Source: Phycisphaerales bacterium
GTDB lineage: Bacteria > Planctomycetota > Phycisphaerae > Phycisphaerales > SM1A02
Length of the DNA: 41,701 nt
NCBI GenBank assembly: GCA_009692015.1
Contig: SIAB01000003.1
Span: forward strand, 1 to 41,701
Reading direction: 5' to 3'
Shown here: positions 27,271-41,701 of the stretch, piece by piece
How positions within the stretch are numbered: the first letter of the stretch is position 1
Layout: every line of letters begins with the position of its first letter
Made by a program: the position numbers and the translations under genes
Notes under the pieces: generated by a model
What the model was told of the DNA's origin: nothing
What the model saw: the letters and a program-made list of their open reading frames with translations, nothing else
The model's database searches: none

Positions 27271-27926
27271 GTGGGGGGTCGCTTCGCGCCTGCCGAGTCT
27301 GCGGCGCCGAGGCACTCATTGTGTTCATGGTGATTGATGGCAGCACATACTGGCGGTGCGAAGCTTGCCAGGCGACGCTGCTAGCCGAGGCGCATTTGCC
27401 AACTATCAGCCAAGAACGCGCGCGATATGAGTCGCACCACAATGATCCACACGATCTCGCATACTGCGCGTTTCTCAACAAAGTCGCGGCGCCGTTGATT
27501 GAACGGCTTGCGCCGGCGAAGTCAGGACTCGACTACGGATGTGGTCCAGGGCCGGCGCTTGCGCAGATGCTCACGCGAGCCGGGCACACGGTCGCGTTGT
27601 GGGATCCAATATTTTTCGCAGACAAAGCGGCGTTAGATGCAACATACGACTTCATTACCTGCACCGAAGTCGTCGAGCACTTTCATCAACCGCGCAGTGA
27701 GTTCGCGCGACTCAACAGTCTGCTGCGACCGGGTGGATGGCTCGCCCTGATGACCACGCTTCAAACCGATGATGCCCGATTCGAGCAGTGGTACTACCGG
27801 CGTGATCCAACGCACGTGACGTTCTATCGCGCCTTCACGATGCGACACATTGCCGCGCAGTGCGGTTGGCAGTGCGAGATGCCCGCGAACAACGTGGTGA
27901 TGATGCGTAAGGGCACTCAGGAATAG
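27267..27926 (+). CDS. Class I SAM-dependent methyltransferase with N-terminal zinc ribbon
   Basis: This 219-residue protein has four cysteines, Cys9, Cys12, Cys31 and Cys34 (two CxxC pairs), that form a zinc ribbon. A methyltransferase domain follows, with the SAM motif [12 protein letters not shown] near 88-99, a CTEVVEHF motif IV near 128-135 and [12 protein letters not shown] near 150-161. This type methylates small molecules or surface sugars; the substrate is unknown. It starts with GTG, whose G precedes the TGA of the phosphatase gene (4-bp GTGA overlap). Its last 10 bp overlap the end of gcvP on the other strand. Confidence 0.83.
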
Positions 27927-30856
27927 GAGCTCATCCCGTCGCATGTGCACACGAGATTGCGATCGCCATATGGATTGTCGACGCGCCCGACCGCTGGCCA
28001 GAACTTGAACTCCTTGATCCACGGCGCCGGATAGGCCGCCTGCTCGCGCGAGTAGGCGTGCGTCCACGTATCGCTGCTCACCGCCGCAGCCGTGTGTGGA
28101 GCGTGCTTGAGCGGATTGTCGTTGCGGTCCATCGAACCCATTTCGACGGCGCGAATCTCTTGACGAATGGCAATCAGCGCATCGCAGAATCGATCTAGCT
28201 CAGCCTTCGACTCTGACTCGGTCGGTTCGATCATCAGCGTGCCAGGAACCGGCCAACTCATCGTTGGCGCGTGGAATCCATAATCCATCATGCGCTTGGC
28301 AACATCATCAATCTTGATGCCCGCGCTCTTCTCGAAGCCGCGAAAATCTAAGATGAACTCGTGCGCGCAGCGACCATGCTGGTTGGTGTAGAGCACGTCG
28401 TAGTGGCTCTTAAGCCGCGCCGCCATGTAGTTGGCGTTGAGAATCGCAACCTCGGTGGCGCGCCGCAATCCATTGGCCCCCATCATTGCGATGTACATCC
28501 ACGAAATCAACAGGATCGACGCACTTCCATAGGGCGCGGCGGCAATTGGCCCGATCGCATGACGACCAGCAGAATCGGGACGCATCACAGGATGCCCCGG
28601 TAGGAAGTCTTTCAAGTGCGCCGCAACGCCGATGGGTCCCATGCCTGGGCCGCCGCCGCCGTGTGGAATACAAAAAGTCTTGTGCAAGTTGAGATGGCAC
28701 ACATCAGCGCCGATCTTGCCAGGGCTCGTGAGACCAACCTGTGCATTCATGTTGGCGCCATCCATATAGACCTGACCGCCACTGGCGTGAACGATGGCGC
28801 ACGCTTGAGTGATCGTCTCTTCGAACACGCCGTGCGTTGATGGATAGGTGATCATGACCGCCGCGAGATTCGCCGCATGCAGTTGCGCCTTCGCTTCGAG
28901 ATCGGCGAGATCGATGTTGCCAGCGGCATCACAACCAACAGGCACGACTTTCATTCCGGCAACAACGGCGCTTGCGGGATTTGTTCCGTGCGCAGAGACA
29001 GGAATCAAACAGACATCGCGGTGGGCATCGCCGCGGTGCTCGTGGTAGGCGCGAATCACGAGCAATCCCGCATACTCGCCTTGTGATCCAGCATTCGGCT
29101 GCAAACTCATGCCTGCAAACCCGGTGAGTTCGCAGAGCCAATTCTCGAGTGTGCGAAAGACTTCGGCGTATCCCCGCCACTGATCGCGGGGAGCGAAAGG
29201 ATGCATCTGCCCGAACTGCGGCCAGGTCACCGGAACCATCTCGCTCGTCGCGTTCAACTTCATTGTGCACGAGCCGAGCGTGATCATCGAGTGCACGAGG
29301 CTGAGGTCTTTCGAGGCGAGTCGATTGATGTAGCGCAACATCTCGTGCTCGCCGTGGTAGCGGGTGAACACATCCTGCTGCATGAACGGCGTCGTGCGCG
29401 CGAAGACGGGTGGAATGCACGAGAGTGGGGCATCGACGGATGCCGCGGTGGGCGGCCGTTTGCAACCAGAAAAGACCTGCACTAGCAGCTCGACTTCGGC
29501 GAGCGTGGTTGCTTCATCGAGTGTGACGCCGAGCGTGTCGTCGCCGTATGTGCGCAGATTGAGTCCGCGACTCGCCGCGGTTGCGAGCACATCGCCGCAA
29601 GTGAATCCACCGCCAACTCTCACCCGCAGCGTGTCGAAGAATGCGCCGCTGCCGCAGTCGTGGCCGAGCGCGCCGAGCGAGCGGGCGAGTGTGAGTGTGA
29701 GCGCGTGCACGCGCTGTGCAATCTTGGTGAGCCCAGCGGGTCCGTGATAGACGCCGTACATGCCAGCCATTACGGCGAGCAGAACTTGCGCGGTGCATAT
29801 GTTCGATGTTGCGCGGTCGCGCTTTATGTGCTGCTCGCGGGTTTGGAGCGCCATGCGCAGGGCGCGGTTGCCGTGCACATCACGTGAAACACCGATGATT
29901 CGCCCGGGAAGCTTGCGCACGTATGCGTCGCTTGTCGCGATGAACGCGGCGTGCGGTCCACCAAATCCCATTGGAACGCCGAAGCGCTGTGCACTTCCAA
30001 CGGCGATATCGGCTCCCCACGACGCGGGCGAAGCAAGCACAACGAGCGCCAGTGGATCGCAAGCCGCGACGAGCAGCGCCCCCGCACCATGCGATTTCGT
30101 GGCGAGCGACTTGTAACACTCGATGCGACCATCCGTCGTTGGGTATTGCACGAGCACACCGCAGAACGCATCAGATGGTTCGAACTTCGCTGGATTGCCA
30201 ACAACCATTTCTATGCCGAGCCATTTCGCGCGCATCTCAACGACCGCAATCGTCTGGGGATGGCAATCCTCAGCAACGAAAAACTTGCGGCGACTCTCGC
30301 CGGCAATCGATAGGCACATGTGCATCGCTTCGGCAGCAGCGGTTCCCTCGTCGAGTAGCGATGCGCCGCAGAGTGGCAAGCCCGTCAAGTCTGCAATCAT
30401 CGTTTGAAAATTGAGCAGCGCCTCGAGCCGCCCCTGCGCAACCTCGGCTTGGTAAGGCGTGTACGCCGTGTACCACGCCGGATTCTCAAGGATGTTTCGC
30501 AAGATCACGCCTGGCACAATCGTGTCGACGTAACCCATCCCGATGAATGATCGATTGACGATGTTGCGTTCACCAAGCGCCCGCAGCGCCGCGAGCGTCT
30601 CAGCCTCACCCCGCTCAGCGAGCGCCGCGGTGTTGGTCGGATCATCGATAACAACCGCGCTCTTGAGCCGAATCGAATGGGGAATCGTCGCGGTGATGAG
30701 CGCATCAAGCGATGCAAACCCAATCGCGCCGAGCATCGTGGCGATGTCGCCATCACTAAGTCCAATGTGTCGCCGCACAAACGTGTCGGTGGGATCGAGC
30801 GGGCGAGTTGCGGGTGATGAGCTGATGTTGGTACGCGAAGAGTCGAGCATGGACAT
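27917..30856 (-). CDS. gcvP: Glycine dehydrogenase (decarboxylating), P-protein of the glycine cleavage system
   Basis: This 979-residue single-chain P-protein has an N-terminal half with [25 protein letters not shown] and [20 protein letters not shown]. In the C-terminal half the pyridoxal phosphate Lys726 lies in [18 protein letters not shown]. It decarboxylates glycine and passes the aminomethyl group to lipoyl GcvH. The genes for T, H and L proteins are not in the window. The start at 30856 is one of two nearby ATGs (the other at 30850). TATACT lies 10 nt upstream on the minus strand. It converges on the methyltransferase with a 10-bp overlap and no room for a terminator. Confidence 0.96.
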
Positions 30857-38043: not shown

Positions 38044-40120
38044 TCGCGCGCGCTCGAGCGAATGCGTCAGAGTCGTGCGCCTCGGGGTAGAGCACGAGGC
38101 GCGAGTTCATCATGAGCTGCGCGGCACGCTCGCGATGTTGGTTCGCGGCCGCCGAGTTGTTGCGGACCGATTCGACGCGTGAGATCCAGTGCAACGCTTC
38201 GATGTTGGCGCCCTCATGACGGAGTGCGAACAAAAGACTGATCGCGGCGTTGTCGAGGTCGCCACTCCAGGCAAGTGCTGCACCCAAAATGCAGTGCGCC
38301 TCAGCGGCCGTCTGTGAGACTTCAAGCGCATCGAGGGCGCGTTCGATCGCGTTCTCAAAATCTCCTTGCACGAGTGCGACGCGGGCGAGTCCAATATGCG
38401 CCGCGGGTTGACGCGCGTCATGTTTCTTCGCCACTTCAAAGTGCGCGATCGCCTGCGCGTGGCGTCCTGCCAAGACCAGCGCTGTGCCGAGTCCAGCTTC
38501 AAGTTGTGGACGGCCTTTCGCGGCAGCGATGATCAAGGTCAATTGCGCATCGAACTCGGCAATCGCCGCTGAATCTGCCCCGCGCGCCGACTGGGCGAGT
38601 AACGCCGCAAGCAGCAAACGGGCATCTAGGCACTCCGAGTCGTGCGCGATCAGAGTGCGCAACACGCTCGTGGCGCCATCCAAGTGAAACTGCGCCCCGA
38701 GACAGCGCGCCAGACAGAGCACATAGCGGGGGTCAGTCGGTCGTTGGTCGACGAGGCGTTGAAACGTGACTGCTCCTTCATTGAATCGTTGCCGCGACAT
38801 CTGCACGACGCCGAGATTAAAGAGACTCTCGCGCCGCACGAGATCGAGTTGTCCTTGCACGTCGGCGGGCAGCGCCGCCATGTATCCAAGGTCGATCAAC
38901 TGCGTGATCGCATCCGCCGCTTCGTAGGTATTCAGACGCGCTTCGGCGGGATGCAGTCCGCTGTTGCCTTCGACTTCTTCCCACGACGCGATGCGCGGTG
39001 GGATGGTCGACTGGGTGAGTGACTCACTGAGTACGCGCCCATCCATATCTTCACCCGCTGCGAGTCCAAAGAGGGCGAGGGCAGTCGGCGCAATGTCGAG
39101 GATGATCGGAAGTGCAGGGGATGATCCCGCGCGAATGCCACCCCCCGACATCACAAGAACTCCAAGTGGACGGTGCCAACTCGATTCGAGTTCGGCGCGC
39201 CGTTCTGGCGCAAGATCGGCGAGCACGGGTCGCAAATGATCGCTGTGAAATCCGTGGTCAGAGAGCAATATCAGGGTCGTGTCGGGTCCTGCCGCGGCGA
39301 GTAAATCGCGCAGGGCTTGGTCGTGCCATTCGTACACAGCGTCCATCACTCCGCTGTACTGGCGAAGTTCGCGCTCGCTGACGTGTGCCATGCGCGGCGG
39401 AACAAACTGCATGAAATGATGACCAACGGTGTCGATCGCGTCGAAGAAGACCATCCCACACTGCCACTGCGCATCATTGCGAAGTGCATCGCAGGCGATC
39501 GCGCGAATACTCGTTGCGTACGCCATCAACTTGCAGAGGGTTGCGACACGCGCGCTGGTGCGTCCGATGGTGTCGGCGCTCGGCAAGAGTGCGCGCAGTG
39601 TCTCAGCAGGAAAGTTTGCGGCGCGTTGTCGAAGCGCCGCAACACGCTCGCGACGAAGTGCTGGCGATACCGATCCGTCAACAAGTGGCCACGGGCTGGT
39701 GGCAGCAGATGGCTCTCCCTCTTGCAAGAGATTCGAGACGACTCCACCGACAATCGGTTCGGCAGGATGCGATGCGTACCAACCGACTGTGTGCGTGCGA
39801 ATTCCAGATTGTGACAGGATGTTCCAGAGTGCTTTACCAGAGCGCGAGGTGCTTGTCGCGACTTGCAATCCAGAGCCGTCGGCCTTTGGTTCGACGAAGT
39901 TCAGAATGCCATGTTTGTCAGCGGTTTTGCCAGTTGTGATAGATGTCCAGAGCAGTGGAGAGAGCTTTGGTTCGAGTGTGCGTAGATCGGCGCGTACTCC
40001 GGCGTCGATGGCAGCCTTGAGGGTCGGCATCCGCCCAGCGGCGATGAGTCGATCGATGATGATCCAATCGGCGGCATCCCATCCCACTACGAGTAGTCGC
40101 CGAGTCGGTGCGAGCGTCAT
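38033..40120 (-). CDS. Alkaline phosphatase superfamily (type I phosphodiesterase-like) protein with C-terminal TPRs
   Basis: This 695-residue protein has an N-terminal phosphodiesterase/sulfatase-fold domain (about 7-420). Metal ligands are Asp15 in VGWDAADW, the nucleophile Thr59 in LLWTSITTGK, Asp/His in FFDAIDTVGHHF and the SDHGFHSDH motif. Tetratricopeptide repeats follow (about 440-690; GLARVALVQGDFENAIERAL). It probably hydrolyses a phosphodiester or nucleotide pyrophosphate, with the TPRs binding partners. No signal peptide is seen, although members are often exported. EboF proteins belong to the same superfamily, but this one is 30 kb from the ebo genes. The start at 40120 follows TACGAT by 6 nt. 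Confidence 0.85.
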   Translation of the reverse strand: MTLAPTRRLLVVGWDAADWIIIDRLIAAGRMPTLKAAIDAGVRADLRTLEPKLSPLLWTSITTGKTADKHGILNFVEPKADGSGLQVATSTSRSGKALWNILSQSGIRTHTVGWYASHPAEPIVGGVVSNLLQEGEPSAATSPWPLVDGSVSPALRRERVAALRQRAANFPAETLRALLPSADTIGRTSARVATLCKLMAYATSIRAIACDALRNDAQWQCGMVFFDAIDTVGHHFMQFVPPRMAHVSERELRQYSGVMDAVYEWHDQALRDLLAAAGPDTTLILLSDHGFHSDHLRPVLADLAPERRAELESSWHRPLGVLVMSGGGIRAGSSPALPIILDIAPTALALFGLAAGEDMDGRVLSESLTQSTIPPRIASWEEVEGNSGLHPAEARLNTYEAADAITQLIDLGYMAALPADVQGQLDLVRRESLFNLGVVQMSRQRFNEGAVTFQRLVDQRPTDPRYVLCLARCLGAQFHLDGATSVLRTLIAHDSECLDARLLLAALLAQSARGADSAAIAEFDAQLTLIIAAAKGRPQLEAGLGTALVLAGRHAQAIAHFEVAKKHDARQPAAHIGLARVALVQGDFENAIERALDALEVSQTAAEAHCILGAALAWSGDLDNAAISLLFALRHEGANIEALHWISRVESVRNNSAAANQHRERAAQLMMNSRLVLYPEAHDSDAFARARAINS

Positions 40121-40126
40121 GAACTG

Positions 40127-40132
40127 ATCGTA
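40127..40132 (-). promoter_or_regulatory. -10 element for the TPR phosphodiesterase-like gene (leaderless type)
   Basis: TACGAT is followed by 6 nt and the ATG at 40120. It lies in the 37-bp gap after the DUF899 stop. Confidence 0.5.
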
Positions 40133-40157
40133 CTGAAGGGGATGTGGCGCGCTACCG

Positions 40158-40742
40158 TCACGCGAGCGGCTTGTGTGGGCTCCACTCCTTGTGACCATCG
40201 GCAAAGAGTTCGAAGAGTGGCCAGATGCTGCAGAACTGATCGCCTGGACCGAAGAACGCGCTGCTCACGCGGGCGATTGATCCGTCGGCACTGCGGTGAA
40301 ACGAACTCACGCCCGGATATCGCGAATCAGGTTTCGGTTCGTACCCCATATCGAGATTGAAACTTGTGCCGCCATCGCTGACAACCGGGTAGTTCCATCC
40401 GCGCAGTGCGATCTGCGCCGTGAGCGACTCGGGCGAGTCTAGGGATGCCAACACGAACGCACAGCGTTGGGCAAGGTGTCGGGCGAAGCCTATGAATCCA
40501 TCTGCCCACAGTGCACAGTGTTGGCAGCGCTCTCCCATGTTGTGCACGATCAACATGTCGTCGTGCGCGCCGAAGAGTTGCGAGAGTTTGACAGTCGATC
40601 CATCAGGACGGCGAAAGTCGTAGTCGTGCACTGGTGCCGCGGCGATCTTCATGCGCAGCGCGCGGCGCTCGGCTTGGAGTGCTTTGAGTTCTTCGTCGAT
40701 TGCTTTGGCGCGGGCGATGTGGGGGCTTTGGGCAGTGGTCAT
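40158..40742 (-). CDS. DUF899 thioredoxin-like family protein
   Basis: This 194-residue protein has an N-terminal coiled helix (about 8-36) and a thioredoxin-like fold with Cys73-x-x-Cys76 (GERCQHCALWADGF). The block SAFFGPGDQFCSIWPLF near the C-terminus is typical of DUF899 proteins. They are presumed redox proteins; no substrate is known. The CxxC pair here favours an active disulfide. The start at 40742 is supported by TACCAT 6 nt upstream; the open frame to 40847 is rejected. It is divergent from fpg. Confidence 0.82.
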   Translation of the reverse strand: MTTAQSPHIARAKAIDEELKALQAERRALRMKIAAAPVHDYDFRRPDGSTVKLSQLFGAHDDMLIVHNMGERCQHCALWADGFIGFARHLAQRCAFVLASLDSPESLTAQIALRGWNYPVVSDGGTSFNLDMGYEPKPDSRYPGVSSFHRSADGSIARVSSAFFGPGDQFCSIWPLFELFADGHKEWSPHKPLA

Positions 40743-40748
40743 TCGGGC

Positions 40749-40754
40749 ATGGTA
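40749..40754 (-). promoter_or_regulatory. -10 element for the DUF899 gene (leaderless type)
   Basis: TACCAT is followed by 6 nt and the ATG at 40742. Confidence 0.5.
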
Positions 40755-40852
40755 CAAGCGGATTCGCCCGTGTTTCTGTGAAGGGGCGACCGACTCGCGC
40801 GCGATCGCGCCCGAAGCGATGACCCCGATCGCCGCCGCCCATCCCATCCAGT

Positions 40853-40858
40853 TACCCT
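40853..40858 (+). promoter_or_regulatory. -10 element for fpg (leaderless type)
   Basis: TACCCT is followed by 7 nt and the GTG at 40866. No ribosome site is present. Confidence 0.5.
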
Positions 40859-40865
40859 CTTTCGC

Positions 40866-41701
40866 GTGCCAGAACTACCAGAGGTCGAGACGATGCGGCG
40901 AGAATGCGAGCGCAAACTCGTGGGTCGAATGCTGGGTCGTATCACTGTTGCGCCAGGATCTGCGCGGCAACTCGTCGGCGAGTGTCGGGAGTGGTCGAGT
41001 CTGCGCGGACAGCGCGTTCGCGCGCTTGAGCGCCACGGCAAGTGGCTGCTCATGAGACTGCACAGCGGCGTGACCGTGGCGATCCATCCTCGCATGTCGG
41101 GACGGCTGCTGGTGTGCAATCCAACCGAACTCGCGCGGTTGGCCCCGCATGCCCGCGTTGTCATGCGCCTCGACAACGGTCGACTCGCTGTGCTGAACGA
41201 TGCGCGTCGGTTCGGCCGAGTGTTGCAATTGCCCGTTGGCACTAATCAGCCCCAACGGACGGGGCCAGATGCCATGAAGATTTCTCGCGCTTCGTTTGCC
41301 GCGGCGCTGACATCTACCTCACGCAGCGTCAAGGCGGCGTTGTTGGATCAGGTGCTGTTGGCCGGAGTCGGCAACATTTATGCCGACGAGATGTTGTGGA
41401 TGGCGCAAGTTCATCCCGGTGGGAGGGCCGACGCGCTCACCCACGCGCAATCCGGAGAACTTCACAAAGCAATGGGACGGGTGCTACGCGGCGCAATTGT
41501 CCGCAGTGGCACGAGCTTCGACGCGGGATATGAAGGCGGGCGCAATCAGCACCAACGGACGGGGCCAGATGCCATAAAGATTTCTCGCGCTTCGTTTGCG
41601 GCGGCGCTGACATCTACCTCACGCAGCGTCAAGGCGGCGTTGTTGGATCAGGTGCTGTTGGCCGGAGTCGGCAACATTTATGCCGACGAGATGTTGTGGA
41701 T
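40866..41701 (+). CDS. mutM: Formamidopyrimidine-DNA glycosylase, with in-frame duplicated segment (runs off the window)
   Basis: The GTG-started protein begins PELPEVETMRR, with the catalytic Pro1/Glu2. It continues with HGKWLL (the Lys57 equivalent), IHPRMSGRL, LNDARRFGRV and the H2TH region LLAGVGNIYADEMLW. It removes oxidised purines such as 8-oxoguanine from DNA. After GTSFDAGYEGGRNQHQ, where the C-terminal zinc finger should follow, the frame instead re-enters the RTGPDA segment. A 158-nt stretch then repeats exactly 300 nt (100 codons) after its first copy, and the frame stays open to the edge. If real, the protein has two H2TH domains; if an assembly error, the true C-terminus is missing here. 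The zinc finger is not seen. Confidence 0.87.
   Translation, partial: MPELPEVETMRRECERKLVGRMLGRITVAPGSARQLVGECREWSSLRGQRVRALERHGKWLLMRLHSGVTVAIHPRMSGRLLVCNPTELARLAPHARVVMRLDNGRLAVLNDARRFGRVLQLPVGTNQPQRTGPDAMKISRASFAAALTSTSRSVKAALLDQVLLAGVGNIYADEMLWMAQVHPGGRADALTHAQSGELHKAMGRVLRGAIVRSGTSFDAGYEGGRNQHQRTGPDAIKISRASFAAALTSTSRSVKAALLDQVLLAGVGNIYADEMLW
41244..41401 (+). repeat. Tandem repeat copy 1 within fpg
   Basis: This 158-nt stretch recurs 300 nt downstream with three mismatches (41251 C/A, 41276 G/A, 41300 C/G). It codes the linker and H2TH region in its normal context. Confidence 0.95.
41544..41701 (+). repeat. Tandem repeat copy 2 within fpg, cut by the window end
   Basis: This is the second copy, in the same reading frame and offset by exactly 300 nt. 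One mismatch changes Met to Ile, one is silent and one changes Pro to His (the NQPQ/NQHQ site at the junction). It replaces the expected zinc-finger coding sequence. Confidence 0.95.

Follow-up and report, generated by a model that had tools for sequence, protein, structure and literature searches.

The fpg-like frame at the end of the window (the window being the whole stretch of 41,701 nucleotides analysed here, which is all of contig C58) returns to the start of its own H2TH domain shortly before the zinc finger would be expected. We consider it quite likely that the repeat created in this way arose by chimeric extension of the contig end, the added sequence probably coming from a second strain. 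An earlier note on this DNA had left the choice between a recent duplication of the H2TH domain and a join of two strain variants at the end of a contig. The latter has the better support, because C58 ends inside the second copy, because strain-level mismatches occur where other contigs of the bin overlap at their ends and because the contig does not fit a path model of a true duplication; the first option is less well supported and keeps a small share of the probability.

The frame contains no stop codon and has the domain order N-terminal Fpg, H2TH and then the beginning of a second H2TH copy (coordinates are listed in the table). In a profile search, the N-terminal domain Fapy_DNA_glyco (PF01149) was found at residues 1-119 (E 1.6e-27) and the H2TH domain (PF06831) in two stretches, the best of them at residues 135-217 (E 8.9e-35). 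The first H2TH match lies at 41268-41516; the second, at 41577-41699, is partial, and about half of this domain is missing from the frame. The only cysteines are residues 14, 40 and 84, and no CxxC..CxxC pattern occurs before the contig end.

Table. Coordinates of the fpg-like frame, the repeat, its join and the two gcvP copies
Feature	Position	Strand	Remarks
fpg-like frame	40866..41699	+	GTG start, 278 codons, open at the contig end
Copy 1 of the 300-bp unit	41244..41543	+	includes the H2TH domain; from repeat search and copy comparison
Upstream member of the short common sequence	41244..41258	+	AATCAGCCCCAACGG
Join	41544..41558	+	AATCAGCACCAACGG (Asn-Gln-His-Gln), a few residues ahead of the position of VYGR and the zinc finger in relatives
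Partial copy 2	41544..41701	+	158 bp, 3 mismatches, truncated by the contig end; likely a chimeric extension
gcvP, window copy (presumed glycine dehydrogenase)	27917-30856	-	87% identity to the C93 copy
gcvP, second copy in the bin (presumed glycine dehydrogenase)	G000:C93:21117-24056		87% identity to the window copy

Translation of the frame shows the in-frame jump backwards by 100 codons after NQHQ that had been described before. The description of the repeat as an exact 300-bp tandem repeat holds for its arrangement, a direct repeat with a spacing of 300, and fails for exactness and length: 41544-41701 is identical to 41244-41401 at 155 of 158 positions, and the second copy reaches only 158 bp because the contig itself stops at 41701. 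This match is far beyond chance, and the family is the only direct repeat detected within 40000-41701. The three base differences named earlier, including the change from Met to Ile, were all recovered (41251C/41551A, 41276G/41576A and 41300C/41600G). The final 101 bp of copy 2 match copy 1 exactly.

The sequence AATCAGC(C/A)CCAACGG, proposed as the common element at the two sites, is indeed present at both, as the comparison of the copies confirmed. The base at 41551, which changes Pro to His, probably stems from the downstream site of the join and would then not count as a copy difference; one of the closer relatives (L170) has GTSFDAVYPGGGMKRYLKVYGR, which parallels GTSFDAGYEGGRNQHQ of the window. 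If the mismatch at 41551 belongs to the downstream site, two real copy differences remain, so that the copies differ at two of the 143 bases of 41559-41701. The stretch downstream of the 41551 mismatch, 41552-41701, is exactly 150 bases long. This would be the length of one read if the reads were 150 long and agrees with the 149-bp overlap that is usual in this bin (see below), but coincidence is possible.

Both inner differences (41276/41576 and 41300/41600) fall on third codon positions, which fits an origin from a haplotype slightly better than sequencing error. Differences at such positions are also what evolution would have left, and they thus agree with a second explanation: fpg, in the organism or in one of its strains, could really have undergone a recent tandem duplication of 300 bp, with the short common sequence as the site of slippage or unequal exchange. 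We regard such a duplication as unlikely. The in-frame join, which has a chance probability of 1 in 3, and the short homology at both sites are as expected of real slippage, and the frame is free of stop codons, though this would be true for any copy of an open frame. The common sequence itself suits a molecular chimera and genomic slippage alike and does not discriminate between them. A weak point against the duplication is the change from Met to Ile, which goes through ATA, a codon used for only 19 of 631 isoleucines in 25 chosen frames of the window.

In related proteins the zinc finger follows soon after the H2TH domain. We extracted 46 relatives, 19 from a search of the genus, one from genome_contigs and 26 from a search of the class; they are the best-scoring part of a larger set, as the class search gave matches in 193 of 397 genomes. 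A regular CxxC..CxxC finger is present in 45 of them, the exception (L172) having a slightly irregular one, and in the relatives measured the first cysteine comes 67 to 78 residues after GNIYADE. As GVGNIYADE starts at residue 167 of the window frame, the finger is expected at about residues 234-245, and the jump occurs just before this position. The earlier description of the repeat as replacing the zinc-finger region goes further than the sequence shows: the contig stops inside copy 2, and a zinc finger may or may not come after it. A search of the bin for the zinc finger domain PF06827 gave no match at E 0.001 (the best score with the threshold relaxed to E 10 was E 0.67), while the same search matched 10 of 14 control genomes; this absence says little, given that the bin is 85.8% complete and that the smallest contig seen in it has 5,064 bases. 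A short exit contig carrying the zinc finger may simply have been left out of the bin.

The same relatives bear on a third explanation, an old and functional duplication that defines a subfamily of Fpg proteins having two H2TH domains. It has in its favour only that the frame is open up to the contig end, and we judge it very improbable: the two copies are 98% identical in DNA, whereas identity to the Fpg relatives of the class is at most 44% among the matches listed, and none of the 46 relatives carries the GNIYADE motif twice (it occurs once in 38, and in the other 8 as a variant missed by the pattern). An H2TH profile search of 101 family genomes gave matches in 91, and among the matches listed C58 is the only case of two H2TH matches in one frame, which counts against both an old and a recent duplication; the other pairs on a common contig among the matches listed (G418, G196 and G430) are about 5 kb or more apart. 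Across the class, 247 of 397 genomes had an H2TH match, and the three genomes that appear twice among the matches listed (read by eye) have them on separate contigs each time. In the titles and abstract openings returned by a literature search, an Fpg with two H2TH domains is not mentioned. Another assembly of the same species was searched for in genome_contigs, which gave a single relative with 31% identity, and in viral_contigs, which gave none.

The Fpg protein of the window is only distantly related to those of its genus: 9 of the 18 other genomes have an Fpg match, with 32-39% identity, versus 67-87% for full-length gcvP matches in the genus. The best-scoring Fpg match (42%) belongs to another family of the class. 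Possibly, the Fpg encoded by 40866-41543 is a transferred or an older paralogous copy. The gene upstream of fpg (40158-40847, minus strand) has a patchy distribution, with a match in 6 of 19 genomes of the genus, its own included.

An argument for a chimeric end comes from the other contigs of the metagenome bin (98 contigs, 1,744,059 bases, 3.0% contamination). The window is the complete contig, with no base beyond 41701, and copy 2 runs up to this final base. When contig ends were compared with one another (blastn, E 1e-5; 156 ends from 80 of the 98 contigs), 18 pairs were found to dovetail. In ten of these the overlap is identical and exactly 149 bases long, which suggests a fixed overlap of the assembler; these ten pairs might allow neighbouring contigs to be ordered. 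Four further pairs have shorter exact overlaps (71, 116, 139 and 140 bases), and four are inexact: 160 bp at 99.4%, 351 bp at 99.1%, 450 bp at 97.1% and 628 bp at 96.0% identity. In addition, the end of C34 matches the interior of C73 with 98.0-99.3% identity. The inexact overlaps and the C34/C73 match indicate that the ends of contigs in this bin are places where variant sequences come together. Two of the features expected of a contig-end artefact, a repeat that stops with the contig and variants at other ends, are present. The inexact overlaps span a range of divergence that includes the two differences in 143 bases of copy 2.

The remaining matches between ends are low-complexity sequences or diverged repeats common to a few ends (C28, C35, C41, C61, C63 and C97); the end of C61 carries a 28-bp palindrome, and close to the 3' end of C53 (L149), at about 100 to 410 bases from it, there is a many-copy array of diverged direct repeats that are about 80% alike. 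Among the 156 ends, only that of C58 repeats the interior of its own contig as one partial copy, which argues against a systematic fault of the assembly and to that extent against an artefact. Its exact end of 101 bp, as compared with the usual overlap of 149 bp, is unlike a regular repeat branch, which favours the artefact.

There are further signs that the bin is mixed. It contains a second gcvP gene, 87% identical to the copy on C58; the two are about as close to each other as those of different species of the genus. Some contig ends resemble each other at 79-86% identity (C80/C81 and C21/C24). Taken together, the two gcvP genes and these ends suggest that the bin probably combines more than one related population, two of them judging by gcvP.

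Next to the comparison of ends, we traced simple paths in a k-mer model at ten values of k between 41 and 149, taking the unseen remainder of copy 2 to be identical to copy 1. For a true duplication, the path from the left flank stops at 41340-41448 for k 41-149, because the bases common to both copies merge, and for no k tried does it end at 41701. If the remainder of copy 2 and the exit to the zinc finger are both removed, the path stops at 41701 for k 119, 127, 141 and 149. With the exit retained beside a chimera of 158 bp, it stops at 41558 for the same values. The three models share one stopping point (41340-41401) as long as k does not exceed 102, and small k thus does not separate them. 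By the ends that the model predicts, the printed contig is what one would expect of a weakly supported dead end extended at large k. The artefact needs a missing exit path too, and repeats longer than k, such as a true tandem of 300 bp, also break contigs nearby, which is a point for the duplication. The model follows simple paths only; real assemblers may extend beyond them, and the assembler used for this contig may differ.

According to the chimeric reading, the organism would hold an ordinary fpg gene with a single H2TH domain that runs into the zinc finger just past the join. The assembled path would have run into a weakly supported end at NQHQ, where about 150 bases copied from the gene's own H2TH part, probably in the version of the second haplotype, would have been added. 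The short sequence common to both sites could have mediated the join, either in a chimeric (template-switched) library molecule or through a wrongly glued read.

It is improbable, in our estimate, that one strain carries a genuine and very recent in-frame duplication with two H2TH modules ahead of the zinc finger. If it did, the contig would capture a domain duplication shortly after it had occurred, but the event would be an ordinary one: the product, with two consecutive H2TH domains before the zinc finger, would probably be a damaged or selectively neutral allele, a minor and probably deleterious variant of a housekeeping repair gene. The chimeric reading calls for caution, as terminal partial repeats on contigs from strain-mixed bins can mimic domain duplications. 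A comparison of contig ends, combined with the predicted end of the simple path, allows a first separation of such repeats from real ones where reads are not at hand.

Compared with known Fpg/MutM proteins (PF01149, PF06831 and PF06827), the window frame shows the expected order of an N-terminal domain followed by one complete H2TH domain; it differs in that the relatives have the zinc finger where the window frame returns to the start of a second H2TH domain, after which the contig ends. With the chimeric contig ends of strain-mixed assemblies, C58 shares the partial copy at its end, the few mismatches and the inexact overlaps elsewhere in the bin, but it differs from them in overlapping its own interior instead of another contig.
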